From Ectocarpus siliculosus (lineage: Eukaryota > Sar > Phaeophyceae > Ectocarpales > Ectocarpaceae): a stretch of 64,000 nucleotides of DNA. Position 1 is the first letter of the stretch; the number at the start of each line of letters is the position of its first letter. The notes below the pieces were generated by a model, which saw only the letters and a list, made by a program, of their open reading frames with translations, had not been told where the DNA came from and ran no database searches. A program made the translations under genes and the position numbers. This document shows, piece after piece, positions 11,967-38,700 of this stretch. Where the stretch lies: positions 681,788 to 745,787 of the forward strand of contig FN649738.1 in the NCBI GenBank assembly GCA_000310025.1. The letters run 5' to 3'.

Positions 11967-14900
11967 ATGGCTGAAGATGCGGTTCGCAACAAGATCTTCG
12001 AGTACAAGGCGGTGAGTTCAAAGATGCCCTGTCCTTCCTTCTGCGGTGGTATGGCGCCGTTGCCCGTCGAGGAGCACGATGATGGAGGACTTTTAACTCG
12101 TGGAACTGGATACCGAGCACATCGAGGAGCAACGACCCTAGCAGAAACCTCTGTTGGCTTGGCGTGCTCAGTTGTTGTGTGCAATAATGGTACTGTTTTG
12201 TAAGAAAACTTATAGGGCAATATTTTGCAGGGAGCGATGCCGCTGGCTGCTGCGAGGATGCTCGCCGACAGCAGTGTCATCATCGTGTGTCCCGACCTTC
12301 CCCTTCAAAAATCAATTAGCATACCCCGGTTTCCACACCTTTGCTGTGCTGCATTCTCCACGCTCACGCGCCGTCTGAAGCACTGCTGCATAGCTGTTGG
12401 CAACTTTTGACGCCATCGTCGCCCCAGGGGCAGGCAGCCCAACGTCTGCTCCTTATCCCCAACATGTGGAGGGTTGTGATCCCGCAGCAGTGCTGCTGGC
12501 ACCAACACCCAGCAGTTGATCCTCAAACGCTGGTGCAGTGCACGCGCACCCACGCCCACGGAAGCTTCGGTGGACCCTTTGTTCGTGGAACTCAAATATC
12601 TGTGTTGGAGATTTTGAGATTTTGGCGTTCAGGATGTGTCTATGCTGTAGCATACCGTCGTCTGCTACGGAAGGTACCACCCCCCGTACCAATATTCAAA
12701 ACTCGATTTTGCTATTTCATCGTCGACGAGGAGGAGGCCACGATCAAGCTTTATTCGTTTTCGGAAGCGTCTTGACGACACGACTACGATGCATTCATTG
12801 TCGGTAAACCTCGCCGTTTTTGCTCCAGAGCAATTAGCTGTGACAACCGGGCCAAATGTATCTACTGCTGTACAACGGTGCGTACTGTACAACTGTACAA
12901 CGACTAAATACGTTGAAAATGCTGAGCACGAACCACCAAGTACGCGACCTAGGCTCCCCTCTCTCGGTACCCTGACCACCCGCCCCCTATTCTCTGTTAA
13001 AGGAGAGGGTTTGCTATTTACCTCTCTTGCGGCGTAACAGCTGAGTAGAGCCCGTCGTGACGTACAGCCTGTGTAGCAGAGATGTATCTATTTAGCCCGC
13101 CACACGCGTTCATCCAAACCCAAAATACACAACCCCCTCCGCGGCCAACCTCCCCCACCCCGGCGTTTTCGCCGACCCCCCGTTGTTCCCTCTCGGCTCG
13201 TTACGTAGAATTTCTCCTTCATGACAGGCGACAGATTTTTCTGTATATTTGTATACCCTTCCAAAAGGATCCCCAACCGAGAGCCCCCTTGCCCAATTGT
13301 CTCGGGTTCGTGGTCATTGGAAGAAACATGTACTCGTGCCCTTACCCCCCAGTCCCCGTCTCCGACCCCGCCCCGTTTAACGCCTGTCTCTTTCGTAGAA
13401 CTCCAACCTTGTGCTCACGGCGGGCCGAGATTAGAACCAACGGTGGATGCCTCGAAAAAGGGTTCTTGCGCAATGGACGAATCATATGATCGTGCCCTTA
13501 CCCCGCCGTCTCCGCCCCCGCCCCGTTTCAATGCCTGTTCTCTTTTTGTAGAACTCCAACCTTGTGCTCACGGCGGACCGAGATTCTCGTCGTCGGGGAG
13601 AGGAGGGGACCGGGGAGGTAGAGTCTCTCCATGGCCGCATGAAGGGGCAGAAGATGGGGGACAGGCTCGACAAGGGGAACAAGCCCGAGGTGGGTCGTCG
13701 TCGGTGGTAACGGCAGCAGTCGGCGCCGGCACTTCAGAGCCTGTGGTTTGACCGACGCCTCTCTAAGTTGCTGCGAATGGCCGCCATGTAGTGTTTTTTG
13801 TAGGGTTTCTCACCCAGGCTCACAGAGATATCATGGTGCGAAATGTGTTAAGGTTTTGAGTTATTTGCGGCTCAATTTCGTATGTAACTGCCAAGTTCGT
13901 AAGTGCGGGCATTAGATGTACAATATGCTAGCAACAATTCAGTGCAAGGCTTAAACAATCTCAAAATAATGCCAGTTTCCAACCCGCCCACTGAAAATAC
14001 TTCGGCACATCCCTTTCTGCTGTGGTTATATCTCGAACTTTCTGTGAGATTATTTGTTCTCTCTAAGAACGAGATGTAAATGGCCGCAGTCGCTTCCGTG
14101 GATGGATGCCCCCAAAACAGGAGCCGTCGGGGCTTGCAGTAGTAGCAAATAGAGCCTGCATTTTTTTGCGAGGGTACCACACGGGACAGCGTTAGAGGAG
14201 AGGCGTGCGACAGGAGATTGATTTTACACCTACGAACAAGAAGGAGGCGGGTCATTTATTTAGTTTTGTTAGGCGATACTCCGTTGTGGTGAGGAAGGTC
14301 TTGTTCATGGCGCCGGGGGCGTGTTTCGTGTCTTTGGCTTACGAGTATGACACGCAGCTGAATTTTGGTGAGTGATATTTATTAAATAGTTTCCAGGCGG
14401 GAAAAAGAAGACGTGCCGAGTTCTTGCAGGGGACGGAGATCAAGTGGGGCACGGAGACAAGAAGGGCCAACTCTCTGTTTTTTTCTACAAATGTACCACC
14501 TGATTTTGTTTTGTCTTCGTTTTCGTCTGGCAACGAACACAAGGCGTTTTTAGTACCCGCCAACCCGCCCCTTAACGCTGTCGTCGTCCATGTCCGACCT
14601 CCAACAATTCAACAACAAAATTAACTATTTAAATAGTTGGAGGAGAGAAAGAAGAAGTCCCAGGCGAAGAGGGAGCGGAAGGCGACTGGCGAGGAGCAGG
14701 AGAGGAATAAGCGGAGTCGCATGCAGAAGGTGTTCGTTGCTGGGAAAGGCTCGACCGTCCTCACCGAGACGGAGGAGCTCGACAGCATCAACTACCGCCC
14801 AAAAACAAAGCAAAGCAGGTGACTTGTTTTTTTTATGTGTGATGTTGTCTTGTTGGTATATTGACTTGCTATTGCTTGGTGTTGCTTGCGATCCGTTGTC

Positions 14901-17900
14901 ATTTGCCTCCCTCAGTTCGTGCTGTTTTCTTGCTATCCGCCTGCTATTGCCTATTTGCACGCGTTGCTGTTCACCTTTTCAAAGTGTTTGCTTGCTGTTT
15001 GCTTGCGATCGACTCGCAATGCACTTGCTTTTTGGTTACAGTAGCAACGCGGCGACCTGCTGGCACCCTATGCCTAATTCCCGATGGGATAGCAATGCCC
15101 CCCCGCATTGCAATCACTCGCGCGTGTGTTTTTTTTTCTGTTTTCCGAGGAGCCTTCCGGCAAGGGTTCGAGGTCAGGCCTTCTCCATCGATGTTATTGA
15201 TGTTGATGTTGTCTGCATTTCATGTTTGATCGCATTCGGATCTTGGACGTCGACACTTGTTTTACCGCAAGTTGGGTTTTTGTGTGACCAGCTGCTGTGT
15301 TTGAGAATGACGTGGTCTTTTCCGTGGATGATGCGCGGCCGTTTCGTTCCGTTTCGTTCCGATGCGTTCTGTTTGGCTCCGTTTCGTTGGAAAGGATCGC
15401 CTACGAGGAGGTGTTGTCAACCATGGTCGCTTCGCTGGGAGACCAGCCGCAGGATGTCCTGAGGGGAGCCGCGGATGAGGTCCTGGCGTGGCTCAAGGTG
15501 AGCATGAGAACGGACTCCCAACGCGTAGCGCACACCCTGTCAGAAAAGGTGGCCTATACAAGTGGAAGCTAAATAGCTGGACGGCCCCTCGTTGACTACG
15601 TTGTACAGTTAGATACGACCGATTTGGTCTTGTGATAAGTGCTCCATTGAATGCCACGTACAATACACCTCACTTGATACTTTCCCCCCTCTCCACACAA
15701 GCGAACCCGTTTGTTGTTTCCACCCCGTAAGCACGCCATGCTTGCGGCCCTTTTTTTTGTTTTTAGGATGAGTCCCTGACGGACCACAAGCGTCAGGAGG
15801 GCGTGGAGGAGATTCTCGGCAAGATGCGGCCTGAGCGATTCCACAAGGTATGACACACGACACGGGAAGACCGATCAGTCGAAGGTCGTTGTGCGATTCC
15901 CTCTGCCCTTGGCGTGCACGCGCCTCACCCGTCTCTCGGTGCTTGATCCCAGGCCTGTCCGTGGTCGTGAATCTGCGGTGCCCCGCGCGCGCGAGAGTAA
16001 AATTGAAACAATAACCGTCCTCTGTTTTCTTTCTTGTCTCTCCGCCTTTGAAAAGGGAGCAAACCCACGTGCTCGTCTATCTCTTGGAAATTGAAACCAA
16101 ACATATATGTACCAACCCACGCGCTCGTCTATTGAGCAAAACCTGCAGATCCAGTTCTATCACTCGCCGCGAGCCTGCCCCTTACCCAAAGGCGGCACAC
16201 GGAACCTGGAATACAAGCGTGACCTGTATTTCATTATGTCTACATCACGGCGTGCGTGTTATACGGCACGCGGCATGGTATGTATGGCGCGGTACACATG
16301 ACACGACAGCTGCACTTGTATTACATTTGCGTGTTTTTGTTGATTCCTTGATAAGAGTGACCGACAACACCACTTTTTCTTGCGTTTTCCCCCTTACTCT
16401 TGTCTATCCCCGTCTGTTTTTGTTCCCAGCTGGTGAGCCTCGGGAAAAGCATCACGGACTTCTCGGCTGAGGGGGAAGATGATAAGGATAAGGACAAGGA
16501 GGAGATGGACCAGGACGACGACCATGAGAAGCTCGATGAAGAGATGGGTGAGGTCACGCGGCGCATCGTTTTGGTGTTGGCCTTTAAATAGCACTTGCTG
16601 TCGTGAGACGACACGCTAGTATAGACGAAGAGATGGGTGTGGTCACACGGCGCATTATTTTTTTCGTAAAGAGCACTGCCATCATGAGCTAGACGGAGAG
16701 ATGGGTGAGGTCACCAGGCGCTAGGTTTGGTAGTGGTCGTAAAAGAGCACTGCTGTCAAAAGATGCTATGTAGACGAGGAAAAGGGTGAGGTCACTTCTA
16801 GTAAGCAATTGTCATGAAACTTAAGATGCTTCTATTTTGAACCGGTTTTGTTGTCCACCCACAGGCGTGACGGTCTTATTCCACGACGATAAATGGTAAG
16901 AACCGTACCCGACCCTTTCTTGAAGCGTAACCGCCTCCCTCTTTTGAAACGTTTCTTGCTGTCCGCTTGCAGGTGTCGCTGTCGTATTCGACGACGACGA
17001 CGACGACGACCCGACCCGTTTCCTTTCTTGAAACGTAACCGTCTATTTTTGCGAAACGTAACCGCCCGCCTCTTTTGAAACCGTTTTCCTGCTGTCCGCT
17101 GGCAGGTGTCGCTGTCGTGTTCGACGACGACGACGACAAGGACGAAGACTCGGAGCTTGACGAGGTGCAGTCGGGAGAGGAGGACGAGGACGAGGGGGAG
17201 GAGATGGGCGTCGATGCCAGGAAAGGGCGGTCCCTCAGGGGGGAGGAGGGGGAGGAGGAGGGGGAGGAGGAGGACGTCGACGAGCTTTCGGTGCAGGACG
17301 TCGACGCGCATTGGCTGCAAAGGTGGGCTGGGGCCTTGGTGGGTAAGGTTGGAGGCCGAGGGCGGGATTGGTTGGTTCGGAGGTGTGTTGGGGATATGGT
17401 TTGGTCCGGGATGAGTCGGCGCTACGATTGTGTTGGTCTGTGGGATCAGTTGGTGCTGCGATTGGTTTGGTCTGTGGGATGGGTTTAATTTGGTTGCTTG
17501 GCTTGATGAGGTCGGGTCTGGATGGGTGGGTTGTGAAAGGTTGTGTTGCGATGCCCCCAGCAGCCAACCCCTTTGTTGAGACTCTTTGTTTATTTGCTTT
17601 GGATAAATCAGTTTGTCATTTCCCCCGTGTTGTGCGCGTTTTCATTGTTGCTCTCTTGTTTCTCCTACTCCTTTTCGCTATGGCACCATGCCCTTTTTTC
17701 TTGCCTCTGCCGAAAGCTCGAACAGGTTTTCCTCCTCTTCGTTTCTTTCGCGTATGACACCATGTTGTTGTTTTTTCTCTTACTGTACCTCTGCAGAGGA
17801 CTCAACAAGTTCTACGGAGATGCCGACATCTCTGCCAAGCTCGCCGAAGACGTTCTCAACGTGCTCATGGTAAGACTGCCGATAGCGAGAGTGACCGACA

Positions 17901-20900
17901 GACTAGCTCCGACTGACGTGGCTTGGTCTTAGGAACCTGGGTTCCGCGTGCTGTCTCCTGCAACCTAGGGACCCTTTGTGTTGTTATCCTGAAACCTGGG
18001 GTCCCCCATGTTGTTCTTCTAAAACCTGGAGTCTCCCATCTTGTTTTTCTGAAACCTGGGGTCCCCCATGTTGTCCTGCTTAAAACCTGGGGTCCCCAAT
18101 GTTGTTCTCGCGAAAGCTTTGGGGTCCCGCGTGTTGTTTTCCTGAAACGTGGGGTCCCCCGTGTTGTTCTCCTTCTCCCGTCTTTCTGTTGGATTTTTGT
18201 GTTGTGGTGACCTTCTCGGCTTGCTCAGAGGGCACGAGAGGCGTCAAAGCTACCCGTGTGCCTAGAGGTGTTTGTGTTTTGCTGCTGCTGCCGTGGTGGT
18301 GGTGGTGGTGGTGGCGGAGGTGGACGTGGTGGTGGACGTGGTGGTGGAGGTGATGGTGGAATTGTCGCTTCTCTCGATTTGGCTGCTTCGTTGCCTCTCC
18401 ATTTGTATATGCCGTTGTTTGGTTGATACTGTCGGTTTCGATGAGACCCTCGGTTCACCTGCTGTTTTTTATTTTTGTTTCTTTGCTGTATGCGTCCCTT
18501 TCATCCTGTCTTGGTGCTTTCGCTGCAGTTGCGACTGCTGCTTCTACCGGACCTTCTCATGGACTACTGTTTTTCATCCTGACGTGCGTATCGACGCCAT
18601 CGCTTTTGTTTCTCGCGCTCTCATTCTCTCTCATTCTCTCTCATTCTCTCTCATTCTCTCTCACCCTCTCGCTCTCATTCTCTCTCATTCTTTCTCTATC
18701 TCTCTCTGTCTCTCTCTATCTCTTTCTCACCCTCTCGCTCTCGTTCTCTCTCATCTTCTCTCCTCCTCCAATGTGGATAGCTGACGGATGAGCGGGACGT
18801 GGAGAACAAACTGGTGGTCCTTCTGGAGTACGACAAGTTCCCCTTCATCAAGGTTTGTATGCTACCGGCGGTGCGCCCGACGCATATTTTCGTGTTGCTG
18901 GTTCTCGCACTTGCTGCGCATGAGCTAACTAGCTAGGTGCTTGGACGAACACGCTCGTCTCAACGTACGCGCCAAGGCGCTGTGCAGCTTTGCATGTTAC
19001 TCCTTATTTTCGGTGTATTTTTATTTTGGGGTTTCTCTTTCGATGTGTAGTTTGTGTGTGGTGTCGAATGTCATGCTTCGGCGGTTTTTTTTTGCTCTCG
19101 GTCTAACAGGTTCTTCTCTAGACCTGGCCAAGGCGCTGTACAATATTTCATACATTTAGTTCGTCTCTCTTGGTGTGTTTTTAGTTTTGGTTTCTTTCTC
19201 GATGCCATTTTTTTTGTGTAGTTTCTCATGCTGTCTTTATCGCTTTTTTCTGTATCAAACAGGTTCTTCTAAAGAACCGCGCCAAGGTTCTGTACTGCAC
19301 CCGCCTGAAGGGAGCTCAGAGCGCGGAAGACAAGCAGGCCATCCAGGCAAGTCAAGGCCCGGCAACAACGGTTGTAAAACGAATTCGCGAAATACATTCG
19401 AGTTTTGCACAGTTTTTTTTTTTGTTCTGCGTTCATTTATGTATGATCAGGGCAAGCAGCCCAGGAAAGTTGCGTCTGCTTTTTCAGCGGCGCATCGTAC
19501 GTCACGCTCGAGCGAATGCTGTGCCATCTGTAAGAGGAATCCTCTACGACAGCAGTGACAAAACAACCAATGTCGTTCCTCATGCCATCCACTACATTAC
19601 ACTATTGGGTGGCGTCAACCTTCTTTTTTTGTTTTCGTCGGCGGAACACTTTTGAATGGCCGTCCGTCTGTCCAAACAACAAACACACGACATTTACAAA
19701 TCTACTGTTGCTTCCCCCCCCCCCCCCCNNNNNNNNNNNNNNNNNNNNNNNNNNNNNNNNNNNNNNNNNNNNNNNNNNNNNNNNNNNNNNNNNNNNNNNN
19801 NNNNNNNNNNNNNNNNNNNNNNNNNNNNCCCCCCCCCCCCCCCCCCCCCCAGGAAAAAACAAAAAACTACAGGAAGAGATGATGGCCGACGACGCCGGCG
19901 GGGGTCCGCAGATCCTGGAGGCCCTGCTCAAGACGGACTCCGCCTCGAGCTGGAACCAGGACAAGCTGGCGGACTTCGGCAAGAAGACCCGCAAGGAGGC
20001 CAGGGCGCTGGTGAAGGGGGGCGGCGGCGGAGGCGGTGCGGCGGGGGGAGGGGGAGACGGGGACGAGATGGACGCCGACGAGGCGTTCGCCCCCGCGACG
20101 TCCGCGGACGTGAAGGCCCAGACGATCGTGGACCTCGAGGCGATGGAGTTCACGGAGGGGGGCCACCTCATGACCAACAAGCGCTGCGACCTGCACTCCA
20201 AGTCCTGGAGGTGAGAGGAGTCCCCGGCGGGACGATGAGGCGCGAGGGTGGGGGAATACGGGATGAAAATATGGCGTATTTTCTGGTAGTGTTTTTTGGA
20301 TAGGAGGTACACTTGCTGCTGTTGCCGGTCCTCAATCAAGCTACGTCTATTTTACTCTTTGATGTCGTTTGATGCACGTTTGCTGTTGGCATATATATGC
20401 AAATGTCGCTGTTTTTATTTACTTTTCCCTTTGTTTCGCGCTTCACGTCTTGACCTTTTTTTTTTTTTTCTTGTTCAGGGCGCAGAAGAAGGGGTACGAG
20501 GAGGTGCACGTGCCAGCCGTGAAACACATTCCGGTGGAAGGCGAGAAGCTCATCCCCATCGAAGACCTGCCCAAGTGGGCCCAGCCCGCCTTCAAGGTAC
20601 CAATACCATATTCTCTCTGTGTGAACGTACGTTCACACGATTGTAGATGCTGCCGTATTTCGCCGTGCTCAGTTTTGCGTTACCGGCTATATCGACGTCT
20701 TTTCACATGTCGGGCAACGGTCGCACGTGATTGGATGCGTGAATATCCACACTTGCTTTGTTTTCGTTTGATCCCACACTCCGGAGTACGTGTGTGTGTG
20801 TGACTGTTGCTTGTGATTTCGGCCAAGCAACACAACAGGGGACGGAGAAGTCGAACCACATTCAGAGCAACATGAAACTCCGTACTTGTACATGGTTTGT

Positions 20901-23900
20901 GAAATCGTTCGTTGCCTGCGATTTCCGAAAAAGACAACTAGGGACGGAGAAATTGAACCGCATTCAGAGCAAGATCAACGCCCGTATGATACATGGTTTG
21001 TAAAATCGTTCGTTTGCTTGCGATCGGCCAACAGCACAACAGGGAATGGAGAAAATTTAACCGCATGTAGCGAGATGAAACCTCAATCGTGAAATCGTTC
21101 GTTGCGTTGCGATTGACAACAGGGTATGGAGAAATTGAACCGCATTCAGAGCAAGATGCAGGAGGCGGCCCTGCTATCTCCGGAGAACCTCCTGCTGTGT
21201 GCCCCGACGGGTGCGGGTAAGACGAACGTGGCCCTCATGACGATGCTGCACGAGATCGGTCAGCACCGCAAGGAGGACGGCACGATCGACGTGGACTCGT
21301 TCAAGATCGTCTACGTGGCCCCCATGAAGGCCCTCGTGCAGGAGGTGGGTGTTGTTGTTTCAGCGGTTGTTGTTGTTGTTGCCATTGTTTGGAAGTGATC
21401 GATGTGTGGAATGGAGATTACGCCAAGTGAACGGCGAGGTCGTGGAATCGTACAGCCCTCTTGAAGGAGGCCGCCAGCTTCTTCTGTCCTGATGCGCGCT
21501 TCTGAAATGACGTGGCCAGGGTTCTGTTAATATTTTGAACGTTGTCTCCAGTTGTTGCTTTGGTTCTATCTTTCACTCTGAAAAGTATATGGAGTGCGTC
21601 CAGGGCTGAACAGGTCCACACTGAGAAGGGAGGGACGGTTTCATGGTTGTGTGCAAGGGAGGCGTGTTGACGGTAGTTGTCTGTCGCTCCGTGACCACGA
21701 ACGGTGTTGAACCATGGTTGCGATGTGGTTCGATGCAATTCCGATGAAGACGGACCTGCGAATCGACCCCCAGCCCCGCAGGGGTGCCTTGACGCACGCC
21801 CTTGGATAGGCACACGTTATTTGCCAGTGCACCGGCTAGCCATGGGCTTGAAGAGGGTTGTGGGCCACCTTCGTTTTTCTGCAGCTTTGAACCCATTTGC
21901 GCGAACAGGCTTAACGGCACTTCACAACGAGAACGATGTCCGGTGTCTATGTGCTGCTGTTGATGCCGTTTAACGTGGTTACCTCCTCGTTGCTCTCATA
22001 CTTCTGTATCCCCTGATTGTCGACTCGGCTACGGCAGGTGGTGGGAAACTTCGGCAAGAGGCTGCAGAGCTACGGCGTCACCGTGAAGGAGCTGTCCGGT
22101 GACCAAAGCCTCAGCCGACAGCAGATCCAGGAGACGCAGGTACATGCCCCCCATTTGCCATGGACGACACGATAGTAGATTTTGTAGATTTCGTAGGTGT
22201 GGGAGACGTCTGTTGTTGGTGTCATTAGTCATTGTTTTTGCTTTCTTTGTATGGGACGTCAGTCTGACACAAGCCAGTCTCTTCGTGTGCTGTCTGCACC
22301 AACCCTTTTCTGACCCTTGTGGGCGGTTTGTTACTTGAGTTTCGTCGTGGCGATGGCTACGAAACGGCGGTACAAAAATTGCCATGAAATGGCAATGATG
22401 TGGTATGTTTCTGTCGTGATGCAATGCATGCAAGCATCCCTTTGGTGTGGTCCGTGGCGGTTCGTGTTGTTTTTCTGTCGCGACGAGCAACGCTGGTCTC
22501 TCATTCGTTCTCTGCGCGGTCTCGTACTCCGAGTGAAATCACCTATATTAAGTTTATTTACATGACATCGACAAAAAATTGATTCGCGTCTTCAACCATA
22601 CACTCAGTTCTCCCTCGTCAACATTTTCCTTGCCATTTGACGTGACACATATCGGCAGAACTTGTTTTTCTCCTAGAACGGCATATATATATTTTCTTCC
22701 TGTCAGCCCTTGTCAATATTTTCCTTCGTCCAAATCTTTGACATGCCCTCGACAAGCCAGAAGATTGTCGTCGTGATACGCAGAACATTTTGCGGCGTAA
22801 GTTTAGCTTGCGCTGTGGGTATTCTGTGTCATTCACAGGGTGTTAGTTGACATCAAAGAAATACGAAGGTTTCTCGTTCAAGATAAGACCCCACAGGATG
22901 TGTTGAACTCAGCAGTGAGATTCGCGTGAGCCGTTTGTTATTTTTGTTTTTTCAACTTCATCAGGTCCCCGTTCGAGAAAATTCCCCTTGCGAAGGGGTG
23001 TATTGAATTCAGCAGCGAGGGTTGTTCAGCCGTTACCTCTTTTTTGTATTTGCTTCTCAGGTGATCGATAGTACCCCTTCGAAGGCATGTGTTGAATTAT
23101 TTCAACAGTGAGATTCATTTAGCGGTTTCATTTTTTTTGTTGTTTCACTTCATCAGGTGATCGTTACCACCCCCGAGAAGTGGGACATCATCACCAGAAA
23201 GGCGGGGGACAGGACGTATACCCAGCTCGTCCGGCTGGTGATCATCGACGAGATCCATCTTCTCCACGACAACCGCGGCCCTGTGCTAGAGAGTCTCGTG
23301 GCGAGAACCATCAGGCAGATCGAGGCAACTCAGGTCAGTCTTTTTTTTTTTTTTTTTTGGGGGGGGGGGCGTCCTGTTTCTTGTCACGAAATAGAGGATG
23401 GAGCGCAGTTGTTAGCGTTGTCTATAATATATTCTAGAACGTCCTTGTGTCATTCGTTGAGTGACGTACACACGTTGTCGCGTGCATCTGTCTAGTGGGA
23501 GCCCGTAGTGAAGAAAAAATGCTGTAGAACGTCGGCTCAAACGCTCACGAAAAAATGAAAATACGGCCAAGACACAGCTAGCTCAGCGTTTTATCCTTTG
23601 TTTGTACTCTATTGTAGTATTCACTAGTACTCGACGACGGCGACGAGTAACAATGTCGAGCCTCGACTCGTTTTTGACGCTTTCTTACACATCTACGGGC
23701 GTGCACAGCCGTATGCCATGACTAACCCCCCAACACCTATTGCGTGTCATGTGTTCCTGCCATCCATGGCGGTAATAAGTAGTTGCTTTCATGGTCCGTT
23801 CCAGATTTGTTCAGGGATGAGAGCCCCACCAATCTCTGCATACTTTGTGGGCCTGTATGTGCAGACTACAATATGCACCTTTTGCGGCCACGCACGTCCA

Positions 23901-24595
23901 GACTACGAGACATCCGCTGCGTTGATAGCAATTCCCTTGTCATGTCTCGCGTCCCCCGAAACAGGAAATGGTCCGGATCGTCGGGCTTTCGGCCACCCTG
24001 CCCAACTACGAGGATGTGGCTACGTTCCTGAACGTTAACCCGGAGAAGGGTCTGTTCTACTTCGATAACTCTTACCGGCCGGTGCCCCTGCAGCAGCAGT
24101 ACATCGGGGTCACGGAGAAGAAGGCCATCAAGAGGTTCCAGCTCATGAACGAGATCTGCTACGAGAAGGTGGGTGTGTTTGTTGTTAGTTGTTTGTTGTT
24201 GTTCGTTGTTGTGGCCTTGATATTCCATTTCAATTCATTCCGATCTCTGTTCTGGAACTGGTCGCCACTGACGCAGACATCTTCAGTGGTCGCACGTCAA
24301 CTACCCCGAAGGATGCATATCATGAAAACTCAAAGAGACGAGTCGTTTGTGTACAATGTCTTACCTTGATGTATCGGCACCGTTTTGTCGGGTGATTGCC
24401 CAGGGTGCATACTATACCATGAGAAAGTCAAGACGAAAATGTGCACCAGTACAACACAATATCTTGCCGTGATGTGCGGGCCCTATGTGTTTGTCAGGTG
24501 ATGGCCCAGGCAGGGCGAAACCAGGTCCTAATCTTCGTGCACTCTAGGGCCGAAACCGCGAAGACCGCCAAAGCGCTCAGGTGAGAGGAAGGGAA

Positions 24596-24646
<51 letters not shown>

Positions 24647-26736: not shown

Positions 26737-26777
<41 letters not shown>

Positions 26778-29700
26778 GTCGCTTCGGATAACATTGCACA
26801 AACACAATCCCGTTGTGAGTGACGTGTTAAACCCCGGGGGAGATCGTTACAGCTACAGGTGCTCTTCAGACCTTCCGAACGCTTCTCGTCAAAACTCCCA
26901 CAGTTCGGCATGGGAAACATGAGTACCCCCCCCCCCCCCCCACCTCGTGCCGCCGTCTACACTCGCCCCTTTTTGCAAACACTGAAAAACAGTACGTGTC
27001 GAAGCTCGCGGACAACCTCAACGCGGAGATCGTCCAAGGCACCGTCCAGAGTGTCGCAGAGGCCGCGCAGTGGCTGGGGTACACGTACCTGTACGTGAGG
27101 ATGATGCAGAACCCCGGCGTCTACAGGGTGCCGCCGGACCAGCTGGACAATGACCCCGTGCTGCTGCAGTTCAGGGTGGACTTGGTGAGTAGCGCCCTTC
27201 TTTGTTGTTGTTGTTGTTGCCGTTGCCGTTGCCGCTGTGGAAGAGAGGTACCTGTGCTTGTTGTATTTTTATTGATTCCCTAGCAAATGCCGGTGTCTTT
27301 TTGTCTTGCTGTGGTGTGTTTTTTTGTTTTTTTGCGTATTTGTCTGTATTGTTTCGCTCTCCTCCCGTCGGCCTGTACAATTGCGCGGGCGCACCCCAGC
27401 CACACAGATCCTCTTTGGTGTTGTTGTTGTTGTTGTTGTTGTTGTTGGTGGTGGTGGTATCGTCGGCGTCGTCGTTCCCGCCGTCTTTTTGTGCTTGCGA
27501 GCTCTTGGACACGCCCGTATTGGCTCATTTCCCCCTTCTCTGTTACCGCTCGTTCTCGTGTGGTCAACCACAGGTCCACACGGCGGCAACCATCCTCGAC
27601 AAGACCAACCTTATCAAATACGACAGGAGCGGCAAGACCTTCCAGCCGACCCCTCTCGGCAGGGTGGCGTCGTACTTCTACGTGACCCACCAGACCATGG
27701 CCCGGTACAACGAGTACCTCAAGCCCACCATGAGCGACATCGAGATCTTCAGGTACGTTGTGGTTGGAGCCCGGCGTTCGTGTTTCTCTCTCTTGTTGCT
27801 ATCGACGCAGGCTGACAAGGCAATCACGAATACTCTCGTTTCACGGTTCCAACCATTTTTCTTATCGAAGGGTTATCGCCCTATAATAGACATGAGCGGG
27901 GAGAGTGTTGTGCGTGGGCCACGCCGTTGTTTAGGAGTTGTAAATTTATGGTTTATGTATGCTCCTCCCGTAGAACGGCTTCCGTGGCTCGACTGCTCCG
28001 CCACCACTGCCGAGAAGGGGTTGATTCCTTAGGCCTATCAGCGGTTTGGACGCGCCCTCCTGGCCCCGGAGCAGTCGATCGAGCTATGGAAGGCGGTCTA
28101 CGGGGGAGGGGGAGGTCACTCGCGCCACTAGGGCATATTCTCCAAGCAGTGGTTGGTGTTTTCGTCGGATGAGTGCAATCATCAATCATCATTCACGAGG
28201 TGCCTCGCGGGACAGGAACAGGGGCGTACGTGCGGATGACGATATAGCAAACGTTGCTACCCAGGCACCCCCCTTCCAGCAGTATGAACACGTAGCCTAG
28301 AGGGAGTATTGTAACCTTTCCCAATTGATGGCGGTGTTTTTTGTGCGGAAGGAGAGGTGGCGCGTCGTTATCTTTCCGAAGGGAACCCCCGGGGCATCTC
28401 CATCAATTGGACTCCGGTGAGGAGGTGTGCACTGGGCTCCATAGCGCCACCCTTGCCCTGAGCTCCCCCACAGCCGCATCTGAACACCTTGCCATGCTGA
28501 TTGTCGCACAGGAGAAGTTTTTCCGAATCTTTGTAAATCAACGTGGAAGACGATCCCTCCATTTCGCCCCCCACCCCCCCACCCCTCAAATGCCGTTTTT
28601 CTCGGACCCCTCCCCGCCGTGATTGCCAGGCTCTTCTCTCTGTCGGGAGAGTTCTCGCACATCGTGGTGAAGGACGAGGAGAAGCTTGAGCTTGGCAGGC
28701 TGGCAAGCAGGGTGCCCATTCCGATCAAGGAGAGCGTGGACGAGCCCACGGCAAAGGTGCTATGGGGTTGAACCGTTGAAACCGCGGCAACTGTAAAACG
28801 ACACGCCACCTTTTTTCGGGTGAACTCCTCCTTGCTGGCGTAGACCACAAGTTAGAGCTGCCGCGTTGGCACGATTGCCTCAACCAGCTTTCTGTGTTAA
28901 TTTACCAAGTTTCTCCCGCTAATCTTTGTATCCCCGCGCATTACCGCCGCATGTGTAAACACGCCGCCTTTTTGTCAGGTGAATGCCCTCCTGCAGGCGT
29001 TCATCAGCCAGCTCAAGCTCGAGGGTTATGCTCTGGTGTCGGACATGACGTACGTGCAGCAGTCGGCGGCGCGGCTTTGCCGGGCTCTGTTCGAGGTTGC
29101 CCTGAAGAGGGGGTGGGCTGCCCTGGCTGAGAAGACGCTGGACCTGTGCAAGATGGTGGAGAGGAGGTGATTGTGATCGATGCAAGGCTCGTGGTGGTTT
29201 GGTTGCTGTAGTTGTCGTGCTGTTGTTGTTGTTGTTGTTGTTAGAAGACCCTATGAATGTGCGACAGGGAATACGAAAGGCTTGTTACGGAGTTCACGCT
29301 AGCGTAAAATCGTTGCGGTGGCTGTGCTGTACGATACTTTTTCTGCTCGCCGATGCAGCTCCTCTCCTCTCGTCAATCCTGCATCCTCACCACGTTTTCA
29401 GCGTTCGTCTTGCTCTCTTGATGCTAACATTCCCACCGCCGCCTTTCTCGCTGTCGTCGTTCCTACACTTGCCTCTTCGCGATAGCTGCGGTGGGATGTT
29501 TCGCCACATTCGTCCACACTTGTGGTACACATGTGCATTCATCAATGACCCTTTTTTATCTACCCTTTGTTGTTTTTCCCCCAGGTGCTGGTTGAGCCAG
29601 AGCCCTCTCCGCCAGTTCCGCCTCCTGCCGGAGGTGATCGTGCGCAAGCTAGAGAGGAAGGAGATCGCGTGGGACAGGTAAAATCCCAAGATTCATTCCA

Positions 29701-32700
29701 CCACGTTGAATGGATATTTCCGTGATTGCTATCGAAGTGCACCGAAATGTTCCGCCTTCCCACTGAACATCCGGTGCGACTTGTGAGGGTAGACTCGTGT
29801 CGAAAAGCGCACTGTGTCACTCTTTGCGGCAATTTTCGACATGAACATGAACACAGGTACTACGACCTGAAGCCGGCCGACCTGGGTGAGCTGGTGAAGC
29901 TGCCTAGGATGGGCAAGACGCTTCACCGTCTGGTGCACCAGTTCCCACGCGTCGAGCTAGCCGCCAGCGTGCAGCCGATCACGCGGGCGCTGCTGAGGGT
30001 GGAGCTCACCATCACGCCGGACTTCCTCTTCGACCAGAAGGTATGCTTTTTGCTTTTTTTTTTTTGTTACCGTTATTCCCGACTTTCTCTTCGACCAGAA
30101 GGTACAAGTACTGGTATGCTTTTTGCATTTTTTTTAACCGCTGTTACCGACTTCCTGTTCGACCAGAAGATATGATATTTGCGTTGTTGTTTTTTGAATC
30201 TTAATACCCGATTTGCTCTTCGACCTGAAGGTATGTTTTTTCGTGTTTTTGCTTTTTTAACCTTAATGCCCGACTTCCTCTTCGTCCAGAAGGTACAAGA
30301 AGTCATGCCTGCTGTTTTTGTTTCGGAGAGGGGTTCGTCCTCCCAACGTTTCGGTGTTCGTTCATCTCCTGGTTTTGTGAACAAGATATTTGTACCTGTT
30401 TGTTGCGGCATCTTGTGGCGTACTCTTTGTTTTCGGTTGGTTACTTGAGATTGGAAGTACAATCGGATTGTACACATGGGTCGTGGCGAGCAGCATCGCT
30501 GTTGTTGTTAGGAAAGACTGAGTGGGCCGTATCGTGCAAGGAAGCAAGGGACCATGGTGACAACATCAAACATAATCCCACTTCCGTTGTCTTGTGTTTT
30601 TGTCGTCGAACCTTTTCGTTTCTATGTACTATTTTCTACTCCACGCGGATGTGGTTTAACTCTATTCTTCCCGCAAGGTTCACGAACTACGCTGTTTTAG
30701 GTCTGGATCCCGCAAAAATACTCATTCTATTCTAATCTTCCCTTCGAACATTTGTGTTCTGTTCTGTTCTTCCCGCAGGTTCACGACTACGCGGTTCTGT
30801 TCTGGATCCTGGTGGAGGATGTGGACGGCGAGAAGATTCTCCACCACGAGCCCTTCCTGCTCAAGCAGCAGTACGCCGATAAGGAGCACATGGTGTCTTT
30901 CACCGTCCCCATCAAGGACCCCCTTCCGCCCAACTACTTCATCAAGGTTATCTCCGACAGGTGGGGCGACCGGTGATATTCTCGAAGAAAAGCGAGAAGA
31001 CTTGCGTCGCTGCGAACGTTTTTTTTTTTTTTTTGCGTGTTGTGGGTGGATCTCTGGGAGGGTGGACGTTGTTGTGTGTGCTGTCAGAATGCTGCCTTTT
31101 TCGGGAACACGTCCGTTTGTGCTTGAAGGCACGTATGCATAGCAGATAATGGCTCACACGATAACGAGCAGAAAAGCGTGCACAACGGCACGATGAGAAA
31201 AGAGTACGCCACGGTACGATCGGAAAGGCGTGCACAACGGTTCGTAGAAGTCGTTGCAGTCTTACGTGTCCGCGTCACTTCCTGCGGGCAGGCCTGATGC
31301 CTGCTTCCCTCTCGGTCTTCCTCCCCTCGTCTCCCATGTGCATGGCGAGCTTCCCTCTTAACTCCTGCCTGTCATGTGTTCAACAGACCATCCCTTAACA
31401 GAGGAGCAGTACCATGATTATTACCTTGCATCGTTCCCTTCCCGCCTCGCGCTGTAACCGCGCGAGTTGTAGGGTAATGGGCAGCCAGAGACTGCTGCCC
31501 CCCCCCTCTACCTCTTGTTGTCCACGAATACCGTCGTCCTAGTACGTTTTTTTTTGCTCCTCGATATGCATGTTCTTTTGTTTTTCCCCGTGGGTGTAAG
31601 ATGTACCCAACCCAACGCCGTTCCTAGTTTACTCTTCCCTGATCCCCATCACCCTGAGCCACTTATATGACAATCTACTTTATCCCGTATCCGCATGATT
31701 TTAGTTTGGGTGCCTGCATGCTTGACACAAAAGTACTCCCGAAGGAATTGCCCCCCTACCGCTTCCTTGTCCTGACTATCGTGCGTTGTAAAGGTGGATG
31801 CGCCATAACCCGAGGTCTCTACCGCCTCCTTATCCTTATCATCGTCCCTTTGGCGCCCGGTGGATGCACATAAACCCGAAGCCGGTCATCCCCCCTTACG
31901 CTTCCTGTTCCTGATCATCTTCCCTTGCAAAAGGTGGATGCACATTTTGCCCGAAGCCGTTTTGCCCCATCAACCGTTTCCTTATCCTCATCACCTTATC
32001 ACCGCCCCTTCGACGACAGGTGGATGCACAGCGAGGCCGTGCTTCCGGTGAGCTTCCGGAACCTCATCCTCCCCGCCAAGTACCCGCCTCACAGCGAACT
32101 CCTGGACCTGCAGCCTCTGCCGGTGTCGGCCCTGAAGAACCCGGCGTTCGAGAAGGTCTACTCGGAGAAGGGGATTCAGTTCTTCAACGCCATTCAGACC
32201 CAGGTATCGAATACATACTATCGACCAGGCTGATCATTTCATCTATTGTACCGTCGATGACGTTCTTTCTCGTGCCCAACGAAGCCGACGGTGAATACAA
32301 TGAAAAAAAGAGGGTCCTTAGTACTGCTGTTTTCCGAATAGCTGCACCGCGGCGAACGGAAACTACCTCAGATTGATGATGCTATACGCGAAGTTGTTCT
32401 TGTGTTTTCCGTGTGTGTAGGTGTTCCAAGAGCTGTAGGACGGCAAGTATGGTAGTGTCCCTTTGCTTGCTTTTGTGCGACACATGCACATGTAGGTGTT
32501 CCAAGAGCTGCACGACGGCAAACTTAAATATGCCGTTACACTATAGTACTCTCCCTTATCTTGTTCATGTGCGTTCCGTGTAGGTGTTCCAAGCGCTATA
32601 CGACGGCAAACATGAATAACATCCCTTAAATCGTTATTGTGCCTTACACGCATACGTAGGTGTTCCAAGAGCTGCACGACGGAGACGCGAACGTGCTCGT

Positions 32701-35700
32701 GTGCGCCCCCACGGGCAGCGGCAAGACGGCCTGCGCCGAGCTGGCCCTCATGCGCCTCTTCACGACCAACCCCACGGCAAGGGCGGTGTACATCGCCCCC
32801 AAGGCCGAGGTATGTATGTGTGCAAATGATGGCACGATGGCATTGCCAGGGATGAATATCAGATGGGGGTGTCCATGTATGTGCTTGTTTCTATGTTTTT
32901 TTTTGTTTAGGGTAGGGTAGCCACAAAGGACCCGTCACTGTAGGTAAGACGTGAGAGCACTGAAGAAAAGTATGTTTGTACCAAAACACAAGCATTACCA
33001 ATGCTCACACAGGACACGTAAGAAAGACGGCGAGCAGCGCTGGAAAATGGTTTGTTTTGGTATTCTTGTCTCCAAATTTTTGTCTCCAAATTATTCACTC
33101 ATCTCGTTGTGTTTGTCTCTCTTTTTTTCTTCAAGTTTATATTTCGGGGAAGGCATGACGGCATGCCCCGTGATTCAGCAGCTGGGCCTGATCGACCCCC
33201 GCGACCGTCCCGTTTTGTCCCGTATTGTCCGAAACGAACGGAAAACGAACCCATGGAACGCAGTGTGCGTGTGTATCTTTGTTTACGTTTTCATTTCGGG
33301 GCAGACATGAGGGCATATGTCCTGTGATTCACCGTCCTTGACCTCCCCACTCCCGCCTTGTCTCGAACTAAACCATGGAACGCAGATCGCCTCGCTGCGG
33401 TTCCGAGGATGGTCGAAGAGCATCGGCGAGGGCCTCGGCAAGACCGTGGTCGAGCTAACGGGGGAAGCGGCGGCCGACCTGAAGCTGCTGGAGAGGGGCA
33501 GGGTGATCGTGGCGACGGCGCAGCACTGGGACGCGCTCAGCCGGAGGTGGAAGCAGCGGAAGAACGTTCAGGTACTTGGGAGGGTCGGTCTGACTGACAA
33601 ACTTAGAGAAGCACCCTTGTTTTCTCGATTTTTGTTTACTACTTCTGCAAGACAACGATAAATGATGGGGGTGTTCAATAGTCTCGCTTTGTTGAATTTG
33701 GTTTGGTTGTTGAGTTGGGGAGGCCATTCCGTTTCGTTTGGTTGTTTCTTTTCTTTTGTTGTGGCACACAACGGTTGCTGTATGTACATGCTTATGTTGC
33801 TTGCTGTGTAACTGCGGATAATACGACAGGACGTGGCCCTGCTTATCGCCGACGAGCTTCACCTCCTCGGAGGGCCAGAAGGGCCCACCCTCGAGGTCGT
33901 CGTCAGCCGCATGAGATACATCAGCAGCCAGCTCGAGAAGAAGGTACGGTATCTTCTCTCGCGTTCACCCGAAACCTTTTTTGATCTTTTTCGAGCCTCT
34001 CGCTTCCGTTCCTGGTAGCGGAAAGGGCGGCTGTAGTTCTTTTGACGGAAGCGAGCTCTTCACTCTTGTCGCGTTATCGATGGAAGGCAATCGCCGCAGG
34101 AGGGGTGGATAGGGAGGCACTCTTCTATGTGACAATGGAGCTACCTACAGCAGTAGCTCCTCGGCAAACAAATTGTTAGCTGTGTTTTGCAAGCGACTTT
34201 TTACTACATTGTGACACTCTCTGCACGTGCACGTTTGCTGCAAAACCAGAGTATTATGCGTGGGTTGATTGGGCACCCCGGCTATCCAACCGCTTCACGT
34301 TCGGCAGGAACGACTACTTGTATGCTTCACCTACCGCAAGGGACATCGATCTTTTCCCGCTCGTACAGCAGCAGGCGTGCCACACGCTCAGCGAAATGAC
34401 TTTTATTTCGCGAACACCACCCGCTGTTTTGTGCGCTGTGTTTTTTGTGCTGTTTTGCAGTGCCGCATTGTCGGGCTTTCCGCCTCGCTGGCTAACGCGA
34501 AGGACGTCGGTGACTGGATCGGGGCGACGGCGCACTCTCTCGTCAGCTTCCGTCCGGACGTTAGGCCCGTCCCGCTGGAGATCAAGCTGCACGGCTTCGA
34601 CGTTAACCACTTCGGGTCTCGCATGCTCGCCATGGCCAAGCCGGCCTACAACTACGTGGCAGTGGGATGCGCTGGTGGGTGGCATTGCTGCTGTTGCTGT
34701 GGTCCTGGCCTGTTGTTGTTTCCGCCGGGTGGAAGACTCAGGATAGCGGGGGGACCGTTCTGGTAAATGTAGATGTACGAGCATCCCTTCGCAGCTCCCG
34801 ATTTTCCAAATTTGAAGCGTTTTTGAGCCTACCCGCTCCAACTTCCGAGCCTGGTCCGGTGAGAACCCGCCGTGCCCCGTCCCGACTTTGTAGGGATGCG
34901 AGGTCAATGGTCTAACGACTACGGCATGCACGACAATGAGTACGCCCCCCCCCCCCCCCCCCCTCCAACTTCCCGTCCTCCCCAATTTGACCAGCCCCGG
35001 ACAACAAGCCGGCCATCGTGTTCGTCCCCTCCGAGGAAGCAGAGCCAGCTTACGGCCATCGACATGGTCACCTACGCCGCGGCAGACGGCGAGCCGAACA
35101 GGTTCTTGACGGTCGCGGAGGAAGAGATCGCCCCGGTGGTGGAGACGGTGCGGGAGGCGGCCCTGCAGCAGACACTGGGGCACGGGGTGGGCTTCGTGCA
35201 CCAGGGCATGCTGGAGGCGGACCGGAAGCGGGTGGAGGGGCTGTACAGGGACGGCATCATCAAGGTGCGCGGGTGTGTTTGGCCCTTGAGGGAGAATAGA
35301 ACTGATCCTGCTCGGCGTTGCGCTTGGAAGAGGAATCAATAGTTGGCACGCATGTGCTGGTTAGTCGTGACTCACTTCTATGCACTTGACGTACACACCG
35401 ACCGCGGAGCAATGTACCGGCACTCCTATTTCCCGTTTTTTCTCGCCACTACTACGGTGCTGACCGTTTGATTTTGTTTTCAACTTGACAATGCAGGTGC
35501 TGGTGGCACCCTTTGGCATGTGCTGGCCGCAACTTACTAGTATGCGGCCGTGAAACCTCGTACCAGCACCTACATGCAGTTCCGCTTTTCCTTAGCGCTA
35601 CGTTTCTGACCCGTTTGATTTTTTTTTGACAAAAACTTGGTAAGCAGGTGCTATTATAGTGGTACCCTTCCGCTTTTGCTGTCCGCAATTCTTTTCTACG

Positions 35701-38700
35701 CACTTGACGTAAGCATCGATCGTGAAGCCTCCCACCGCTCTTCCTTAGCGCTACTTCTCACTGACCCTTTCGATTTTTTTGTGATACATACTTGGCAATG
35801 CAGGTGCTAGTGGTGCCCTTCGGCATGTGCTGGAGCTTAGACCTCTCCGCGAGCCTGGTGGTGGTGATGGGCACGGAGTCGTACGACGGGAGGGAACACA
35901 AGTACGTCGATTACCCGGTGACGGACCTCCTGCACATGACCGGCCTTGCCTCCAGGTGACCAAACCGCCGTGGAAGAATCCGCGAAGCGTTCCGTGGAAT
36001 GATGCGGTTTTCAACCACGCGCTGCTACGGAGAATGTGTTGAGCCGGCTGCTGCTTATTTTCGTTGAGCTGATTCGATGGTCGGGACGTCTTGCATAGAC
36101 ACCTCTTAAGGGCGGGAAGGCGGTGACCACGGGAGACGTATGTGCGCTCCAGTTATTGGACCGGTGCGGATGTCAGACGTGGTGAGCAGAGACCGGAAGA
36201 CTTTTATGTGACAACAGCATTAACAGCGTCAGCAGCAATAACAACAACAACAACTACAAGGGCAAAAACAACGATATGAGCGCAAACATCGATACTACGA
36301 ATGCTATTTGCTAACAGACGAGGTAAATGTCCCGCCGGTACCACGTGCAAAACCAACCTGCAGGCCCCTGCTCGACAGCAGCGGGCGCGGGGTTCTCCTG
36401 TGCCACACCCCGAAGCGGGAGTACATCCGCAAGCTCCTGTACGACCCCTTGCCGATCGAGAGCCACCTCGACCATGTCATGGCGGAGCACATGAACGCCG
36501 AGGTGCGTTAGAGTCCCTTTTTTTGCTGCTCGTGTTTTTCTTACATGTGAGCACTACATATCCATCTCTACCCGAAAAAGAAAATAAACCAGGATGACTA
36601 AGCAAATTGCGCATTCATATATGTGTTTTCACTTGTCCTTGAGCTTGTCGCTACGGGTGCGGTATGTAGTACCGGAGCATTCCCGTGGCCGAGAGCATGT
36701 TGTAGTCTTGTTTCCGAGGTGAGTTGCCTCTTGCCAGCCCGTACCCGTACTTTGCAATGCGCAGCAGCATTGGCGATGCATACTGACGTAAAAATGGCGC
36801 CCTGATACGCCGGGAAGGAAGCGCGTTGGGCATTATCCTGTGTGATGATTCATGTTGTTGTTGTGTGCCCGATCTCTCGCTTTTCACACGGTCCTATCCA
36901 TGTCTGTTGACGGTTTCATGATTCATCGTGTGACGTTCCCTCCCGGCGTCGTGTTGATCGTACCATACCAGGTGGTGACGAAGACGATCGAGAACAAACA
37001 GGATGCCGTGGACTACCTCACGTGGACGTTCTACTACCGCAGGCTCACACAGAACCCAAACTACTACGACATGGGGGGCAGCTCCCACAGGCATCTCAGC
37101 GACCACTTGAGCGAGCTGGTGAGAAAAGCTCGTTGTGTTTATTGGTTTTGTTGTCTACCGTTTTCCGTGTTTTGAAGACCCAAGCCGGTGCCTGTAAGGG
37201 GTCAGGGCAAACCCATCCCCGCCCCCAATGTTGGAGCTTGACTATAGCAGACCCATCTCTTTTGTTCAAAGCCTTGACCCAATGCTGCTTTGCGTGTTAA
37301 CTCTATCCGAAGGTGGAGCGTGTGGTGGGGGACCTCGAGGAGGCGAGGGCCGTGTCCGTCGAGGACGACATGAACCTCAGCGCGCTAAACCTGGGCATGA
37401 TCGCCGCGTACTACTACCTGCAGTACACCACCATCGAGCTCTTCGCCAACTCTGTCACGGCCAAGACGAAGCTCAGGCGAGATACCGCAAATGACACAAG
37501 ATAACACACACCCTGGCCAAATTTTTCAAATCTCGATTTCTCAACGACAGAAAAAGTCACAGCGCCGAAACGGTGGCGTTAAAGCTGTCTCGTCGAGAGT
37601 TTTCCGAAAATGTATTGTTTCATTTATGCATCCTCTTCGTCATGGCGTAATCGAGCTTTGAAAATTGATCAAGGGATGCGGTATCTTGGGTCATTTATGG
37701 GTATTCTGTGATCCTCTCATGATGCTTGCGTTGTTTGTTCTTGTCTTGGTGGCTGTCGTTGCTGGTCGTGGATGATGCCACTGTTCGATCGCAGCTGTAG
37801 CACACGATCGTCGAGCTCTCCGCTAATCTCGTTTTATCAGGAACCTTGCTATTGTCTCCTCTGTGTGATCCAGGTAAATACTGGCGTCCTTCCAACCTAT
37901 GGCTGTTGTTTGGGCTCAATCCAGGTTCATTTGTAAAGAACCGTTCACTTCGCTCCAAGATCTGTGGCCTTTGATTTGAAAAGCTTGCCTGGTAAGATTT
38001 CACCCCCAAGACCTCCAAGAAAGCCCCGGCATTACGTTACAGCTTGATTGGACCTCCAGCCTGATTGCTTGCATTGTTTCTGCTGCTGGGTGCCCTGGCT
38101 GCTCTTTATGTCGAACGGCGTGACCTCTTGCGGCGACAGGGGCTTGCTGGACATCGTGGCATCGGCCTCCGAGTTCAACGAGCTCCCTGTCAGGCAGCAG
38201 GAGGAGAAGGCCCTCAAGATGCTGGCGCACCACCTCCCTCAGAAGGTAAGAAAGCGTGGTGATTTGGACGGCAAGAATACCATTTTAGAGCAACATCGAA
38301 AGCAATTGCGTGTTGGTGGCTTTGTACGGAGGCTGGTCTGCCGTTCCTTGTTGAGAGCGGGAATGTTTGGCTTGTTTGGTTTGTTGCCGCAAACGCCGAT
38401 TATCTTGCTGCATGCCACACGAGTGATATCCAGATGTTGGGCTTTCCCCCGATATGTTGTCCCCAAACCAAAAACTGTGAAGTTTTTACATAACATTATC
38501 GTTTACCTAACACATTTTCTTGTGCCGAAACAAACCTACTTGTTTGTTCGGCACTCGACTCAGCAGTTGTACTGAATCTCCTCACGTCATGTTCATTTTC
38601 CACTCTTGTTGCCGCTCTTATGATAATGCGCAGCTTCCGAACGAGTGGCAGTTTTCGGACACCAACGCAAAGGCCCACGTGTTGCTGCAGAGCCACTTCA

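Follow-up and report, generated by a model that had tools for sequence, protein, structure and literature searches.

Tandem copies of exon edges, chiefly at acceptor sites, inside introns of the BRR2 gene of Ectocarpus siliculosus

How do introns come to contain copies of the exon edges that border them, and why are such copies kept? The question is raised by the BRR2 (SNRNP200) gene of the brown alga Ectocarpus siliculosus, located in a stretch of 64,000 nucleotides (nt) of contig FN649738.1 (positions 681,788 to 745,787 of the forward strand; part of contig 13 of the 189.5-Mb assembly), which is referred to here as the window. A first-pass annotation of the window had reported that exon edges, together with their splice sites, are echoed as tandem units in the neighbouring introns of this gene. 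The echoes proved to be real. They occur mainly at acceptor sites, are far more frequent than in the other genes that were sampled, and decay at a neutral rate. The origin of each copy by tandem duplication is well supported, and the enlargement of introns by this route is supported.

The gene, which encodes a splicing helicase, was identified from 948 amino acids spliced from the window, which aligned over 944 residues with solved chains of human BRR2/SNRNP200 (1719 bits); ASCC3 was a weaker PDB match to the same 948 residues (1342 bits). Spliced alignment and translation, with human SNRNP200 as the query, gave a model of 43 coding exons at positions 13552-42239 of the window (+ strand), including exons 19873-20210 and 40136-40393. 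The stretch reported in the first-pass annotation ends at 35840; the coding exons of the gene continue to 42239. Introns were counted as 43, comprising the 42 located between modelled exons and one ending at 13551 (intron 0). Exon 1, upstream from 13552, was not found in the spliced alignment of the window. The median length of the 42 modelled introns is 521.5 bp, a value similar to that reported for Ectocarpus autosomes (524 bp; PMC12477816). We infer that exon n of the first-pass annotation corresponds to exon n-1 of this analysis.

Two tests were used for detection of the copies. The first was based on exon sequence only, the 45-nt exon edges being compared with their own intron against 300 dinucleotide shuffles. 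A p value below 0.01 was obtained for 12 of the 85 BRR2 edges (about 0.9 expected), namely the acceptors of introns 0, 5, 8, 10, 11, 15, 16, 26, 28, and 33 and the donors of introns 26 and 37, the latter being one of the last nine introns (p 0.010). The test was repeated with 200 shuffles on 42 introns, intron 0 being left out, and gave p ≤ 0.01 at 7/42 acceptors and 2/42 donors. Seven acceptors and one donor of BRR2 had a score of at least 26 in this repeat, a value reached by none of 74 interior exon segments and in none of 84 reverse-complemented introns. In the second test, a template consisting of intron flank plus exon was aligned into the intron. Acceptor copies were detected in 11 of the 43 introns (0, 5, 8, 11, 13, 15, 23, 26, 27, 28, and 33) and donor copies in 2 of 42 (introns 5 and 26). 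Direct copies lying next to each other, each with a splice site, its intron flank, and its exon edge, are thus present in BRR2. The two tests disagree in part: the exon-only test gave no p value below 0.01 for introns 13, 23, and 27 or for donor 5, and introns 10 and 16 and donor 37 are positive in that test with no copy in the template test. Of the 15 edges originally listed, 13 were recovered by the template test (2, 6, 7, 10, 13, 15, 17, 25, 27, 28, 29, 30, and 35 in the numbering of that list), edge 18 was borderline, and edge 31 had to be dropped. The duplication at this last edge lies inside intron 29 and ends 54 nt before the exon.

No echo was found by the template test in the last nine introns (window positions 35956-42125), versus 11 in the 34 preceding ones (p 0.08), and a gradient of echo frequency along the gene is possible.

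A duplicated acceptor unit consists of the intron tail, with its pyrimidine tract and AG, followed by the first 11-38 nt of the exon. The units are spaced by 74-160 bp (median 102). In total, 18 acceptor copies and 7 donor copies were detected, the latter distributed between intron 5 (three copies) and intron 26 (four copies). Eleven duplicated acceptors versus two donors indicate that splice-site duplication in BRR2 is chiefly a phenomenon of the 3' splice site. The units had been described as centred on splice sites; they do span the exon edge, but they are lopsided, both in this preference for acceptors and in the small exonic share, which is less than half of the unit in the acceptor cases. 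In an informal comparison, random break points spanning an edge would be expected to leave about half. The AG dinucleotide is retained in 15 of the 18 acceptor copies and AGGT in 10 of the 18. The earlier proposal that spare splice sites have been created is supported; these may serve as decoys. The real acceptor outscores its copy in 16 of the 18 cases.

The frequency of echoes in BRR2 was compared with that in other genes of the same genome. The sample comprised 20 random 10-kb stretches, nine dynein loci, an ASCC3-like paralogue, and what remained of the window. For these comparators, gene models came from an ab initio finder, whose accuracy was assessed by a split test within BRR2: 20 of 23 exons were predicted exactly at order 2 and 18 of 23 at order 3. 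The model of the ASCC3-like gene was based instead on alignment to human BRR2; everything after position 21045 was dropped, the ab initio model supplied two of the exon ends, and a 9-nt exon proposed by the aligner, which was the echo copy itself, was removed. In six of the 20 random stretches, 3.5-9.4 kb were unusable because of N, and another two contain 100 N. A uniform threshold was applied throughout (score of at least 40, with at least 10 exon nt at 70% identity or more). Excluded from this uniform test were predicted introns under about 60 bp or over 3000 bp, those with more than 20 N, and those with a flanking predicted exon shorter than about 30 bp or of a coding score below 3.

Acceptor echoes were detected by the uniform test in 9 of the 43 BRR2 introns and donor echoes in 2 of 42, introns 8 and 13 failing the threshold. 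The 178 introns of other genes yielded one acceptor echo and no donor echo (ASCC3-like gene 1/30, random stretches 0/86, dynein loci 0/51, other window genes 0/11). The excess of acceptor echoes in BRR2 is highly significant (Fisher p 1.6e-6). The 0/11 obtained with ab initio introns of the window agrees with the earlier impression that its other genes are devoid of echoes. Comparison of edges with non-adjacent introns gave no echo in 1326 mismatched pairs. When BRR2 was excluded from its training, the finder predicted 32 of the 43 exons of this gene exactly; among the 40 introns that it modelled in BRR2, 7 of the 9 acceptor echoes and both donor echoes were recovered. The single outside echo, in the ASCC3-like gene (L030, G000:C10, about 1066914-1067297), covers about 60 nt of an exon that begins with GT. 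An earlier comparator test, restricted to 73 introns with both exons scoring at least 8, had given no acceptor and no donor hit, with p ≤ 0.01 for 4 of 59 interior segments of downstream exons; the echo of the ASCC3-like gene escaped this test, the exon concerned having scored low.

Duplications that are wholly intronic are about as dense in BRR2 (0.132 per kb) as elsewhere (0.114 per kb). A general rise of the duplication rate in BRR2 was rejected on this basis, and the excess is specific to exon edges. Clusters of duplications reached an exon in 9 of 12 cases in BRR2, versus 2.3 expected by random placement (none of 5000 permutations reached 9), the duplication of intron 16 being scored as touching neither exon. 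In the other genes, 3 of 15 clusters did so, versus about 1.9 expected (BRR2 versus others, Fisher p 0.007). An absence of edge preference among intronic repeats, which the first-pass annotation had named as evidence against its proposal, was thus observed in the sample outside BRR2 and not in BRR2 itself. The three outside clusters comprise the echo of the ASCC3-like gene and two cases involving ab initio exons (L015 and L020) that fail the template test. An edge excess that is not accompanied by an interior excess calls for a cause beyond the plain mutation rate. The strongest interior duplication outside BRR2 was a long intronic direct duplication at L013 (positions 2446-3016, offset 229, 81% identical).

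Table 1. Copies of splice sites and adjoining exon edges in BRR2 introns. Positions are those of the window, all on the + strand; for acceptors, copies and real sites are given as exon starts, with the first letters of the real exon in brackets.
Feature	Extent	Copies	Real site	Support
Acceptor echo, intron 0	13334..13585	13399	13552 (AACTCC, not GT)	score 128; exon part 33/34; duplication detected
Donor echo, intron 5	16522..16795	GT at about 16637, 16705, 16786	16548	exon-only p 0.017
Acceptor echo, intron 5	16832..17143	16865, 16973	17106 (GTGTCG)	scores 126, 32
Acceptor echo, intron 8	19102..19295	19110	19263 (GTTCTT)	exon-only p 0.003; score 39, slightly below uniform threshold
Acceptor echo, intron 11	20806..21158	20839, 20942, 21043	21123 (GGTATG)	
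Acceptor echo, intron 13	22999..23173	23061	23157 (GTGATC)	score 43; exon-only p 0.09; fails uniform test
Acceptor echo, intron 15	24353..24510	24392 (AG lost)	24498 (GTGATG)	
Borderline duplication, intron 16 acceptor	24807..24938			7 nt into exon; exon-only p 0.010
Acceptor echo, intron 23	28781..29000	about 28819 (AG lost)	28979 (GTGAAT)	score 42; exon-only p 0.09
Donor echo, intron 26	30008..30299	30102, 30170 (AT for GT), 30231, 30293	30041	
Acceptor echo, intron 26	30661..30809	30678	30779 (GTTCAC)	
Acceptor echo, intron 27	31751..32030	31860 (AG lost), 31934	32020 (GTGGAT)	exon-only p 0.020
Acceptor echo, intron 28	32394..32682	32421, 32496, 32584	32660 (GTGTTC)	
Acceptor echo, intron 33	35460..35833	35497, 35648	35804 (GTGCTA)	scores 70, 92

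The intron part of the copies is 66-94% identical to the original (in the 13 of 17 rows with at least 20 intron letters), indicating duplication events that differ in age. In the exon part, 361 of 407 positions are identical, versus the 89.3% predicted for mutation of the copy alone (p 0.69). Mismatches are evenly distributed among the three codon positions (12/113, 11/114, and 14/109), as counted over the 12 of 18 copies that were readable in this respect. Neither exon-part identity nor codon positions revealed conservation of the copies beyond the neutral expectation. The copies therefore look unconstrained, which speaks against decoys maintained by selection.

A feature shared by most of the echoed acceptors is the AG|GT junction. 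The exon behind the acceptor begins with GT in 9 of the 11 echoed cases in BRR2, versus 10 of the 32 others (p 0.005), and in 10 of 12 versus 20 of 61 if the ASCC3-like gene is included (p 0.002). These observations suggest the following scheme. Small tandem duplications with end points flanking a splice site, in most cases the acceptor, have struck BRR2 many times independently, and some units were duplicated again, leading to up to three acceptor or four donor copies. The copies would survive because they are hidden inside the intron and because the exon-proximal site, usually the strongest, is kept. At an AG|GT edge, each unit would be bounded by GT and AG, so that splicing to an upstream copy would regenerate a donor, and an additional round of splicing, as in recursive splicing, could make good the error. 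After their formation the copies decay in the absence of constraint. Re-splicing is a plausible reason for the tolerance of the copies, and we consider that serial duplication across splice sites, tolerance by re-splicing, and neutral decay, taken together, probably account for the locus, albeit with substantial room for doubt.

Several points weigh against this scheme. The GT association was noticed post hoc, and two of the eleven echoed acceptors are not followed by GT. The donor scores at the GT-starting copies range from 2.1 to 6.1, with a median of 6.0 for the real donors, indicating that several copies would be weak donors. Re-splicing and use of the copies are predictions from the DNA sequence. 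The tolerance argument would apply equally well to other genes, and it leaves the excess in BRR2 and the rarity of donor copies unexplained. Finally, ab initio models were used for most of the comparator genes.

A broader alternative is considered improbable, though not negligible. BRR2 is the helicase that activates the spliceosome, and the edge-specific set of duplicated acceptors in its gene, many of them AG|GT, might stem from mutation coupled to splicing or might be expendable decoys by which the gene senses spliceosome activity. If this were true, splicing itself would be a source of intron growth. In its mutational form, repair or reverse transcription would be templated, for instance, by a lariat still joined to the downstream exon. 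Such a template would yield an intron tail plus an exon start, and the ratio of 11 acceptors to 2 donors, the exonic share of 11-38 nt, and the edge-specific excess all fit a template restricted to the acceptor. However, donor copies are also present, the copies lie in direct tandem, as expected from ordinary duplication, and the process itself is hypothetical. We regard an edge-targeted mutational process as unlikely.

Selection for decoys received a similarly low estimate, fractionally below the former. BRR2, a core helicase of the spliceosome, would regulate its own level through upstream acceptors that add a stop codon to the message, and edge duplications would be favoured for this reason. 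The excess is indeed specific to edges rather than part of a general excess of duplications. In addition, use of the upstream copy as the final acceptor would introduce an in-frame stop codon in 15 of the 18 inserts, and none of the 18 would leave an open in-frame message; in intron 33, a stop is found with both copies, also if the upstream frame slip is allowed for. However, any intron sequence of this length is expected to hold stop codons, and the retention of AG is about what the neutral decay of the copies would leave.

An ordinary, genome-wide process of tandem duplication, of which BRR2 would merely be the extreme that was noticed, is a less likely explanation again. In its favour, interior duplications occur throughout the sample, the ASCC3-like gene has its acceptor echo, the two weakly predicted exons of L015 and L020 are reached by duplications, and BRR2 was chosen because a reader had noticed it. 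Against it, the rate in the sample gives a Poisson probability of 6e-12 for 9 echoes in 43 introns, and a threefold higher rate gives 8e-8, values so low that they leave room for such picking, and the interior density is not raised in BRR2.

The remaining alternatives fare much worse. New introns are described as genuinely arising by tandem duplication of sequence that carries AGGT (PMC3443670; PMC2891723), and AGGT is retained in more than half of the BRR2 acceptor copies. Birth of the introns of BRR2 themselves by duplication of AGGT-containing exon segments, as suggested by the first-pass annotation, was assessed by comparing the intron start with the start of the downstream exon and the intron end with the end of the upstream exon. 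The predicted likenesses exceeded the 99% level of the null in only 0 and 1 of the 42 introns, respectively, making this origin very improbable. An assembly artefact is equally improbable: the 100-N gap in intron 9 and a one-base slip near 35033 indicate that the assembly is imperfect here, but the copies differ by 6-34% in their intron part (rows with at least 20 letters), unlike misassembled duplicates. A mobile element or introner family, which would bring repeats to many introns of one gene, was rejected as scarcely credible since every unit copies its own exon edge and the arrays of introns 11 and 28, the two that were searched, each have a single place in the genome.

Serial duplication across splice sites has relatives among known systems. 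The nearest match to a single BRR2 unit is the potato RdRp intron (PMC4974935), in which the duplicated piece extends across the acceptor, so that the signals for 3' splicing (branch site, pyrimidine tract, and 3' splice site) are inherited, the new 5' end being derived from exon sequence. As far as that source describes it, a single event led to a new intron and a piece of exon in potato, whereas about 11 acceptors are affected in BRR2 and the copies remain inside existing introns. The tandem genomic duplication model of Rogers and of Hellsten (PMC3443670, PMC2891723) likewise involves doubling of AG|GT, with a GT...AG unit between the copies; in that model an exonic piece becomes a new intron, whereas in BRR2 the duplicated piece straddles a splice site that was already present, and the unit lies within an existing intron. 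Recursive splice sites, or ratchet points, consist of an acceptor and a donor juxtaposed as AG|GT, and their use regenerates a donor (PMC8605326). This junction is retained in 10 of the 18 BRR2 acceptor copies, which makes them candidates for such sites, although several would be weak donors. Unlike fly ratchet points, which are described as well conserved and located in long introns (PMC8605326), the BRR2 copies decay and lie in a gene with a median intron length of 521.5 bp. In the [D] stwintrons of Lipomyces (PMC7138796), a splice element is doubled inside an intron and stepwise removal is possible, as it may be in BRR2; the duplications proposed there affect donors and involve 4-7 nt, in contrast to the much longer units, mainly of acceptors, in BRR2.

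A literature search covering titles and the beginnings of abstracts retrieved no description of splice-site echoes along one gene or in brown algae, which is weak evidence, subscription journals being little covered. This type of duplication is known from single genes; with the same reserve, its accumulation in one gene was not found described. Intron lengthening and the tolerance of duplicated splice sites have so far been argued mostly from single events. In BRR2, thirteen duplicated edges that differ in age can be set against interior duplications and against other genes of the same genome as controls, and the AG|GT association provides a rule, open to testing, that would predict which duplications of splice sites are retained.

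Genes for the large subunits of RNA polymerase were located in the genome. Search of the whole genome for the PRP8 families PF08083 and PF10596 gave no match, in contrast to BRR2, which does not imply their absence; they may be missing or split by introns. Minor features of the BRR2 locus include a one-base frame slip at about 35033 in exon 34995-35264, beside a C-rich run, which may be an assembly or sequencing indel or an allele. The 100-N gap of intron 9 (19729-19828) is flanked by C runs, and this intron starts in the model, at 19347, with GC (GCAAGT) rather than GT. Intron 7 contains an array of six copies of units of ~30 bp (17979-18174) that makes no contact with an exon.

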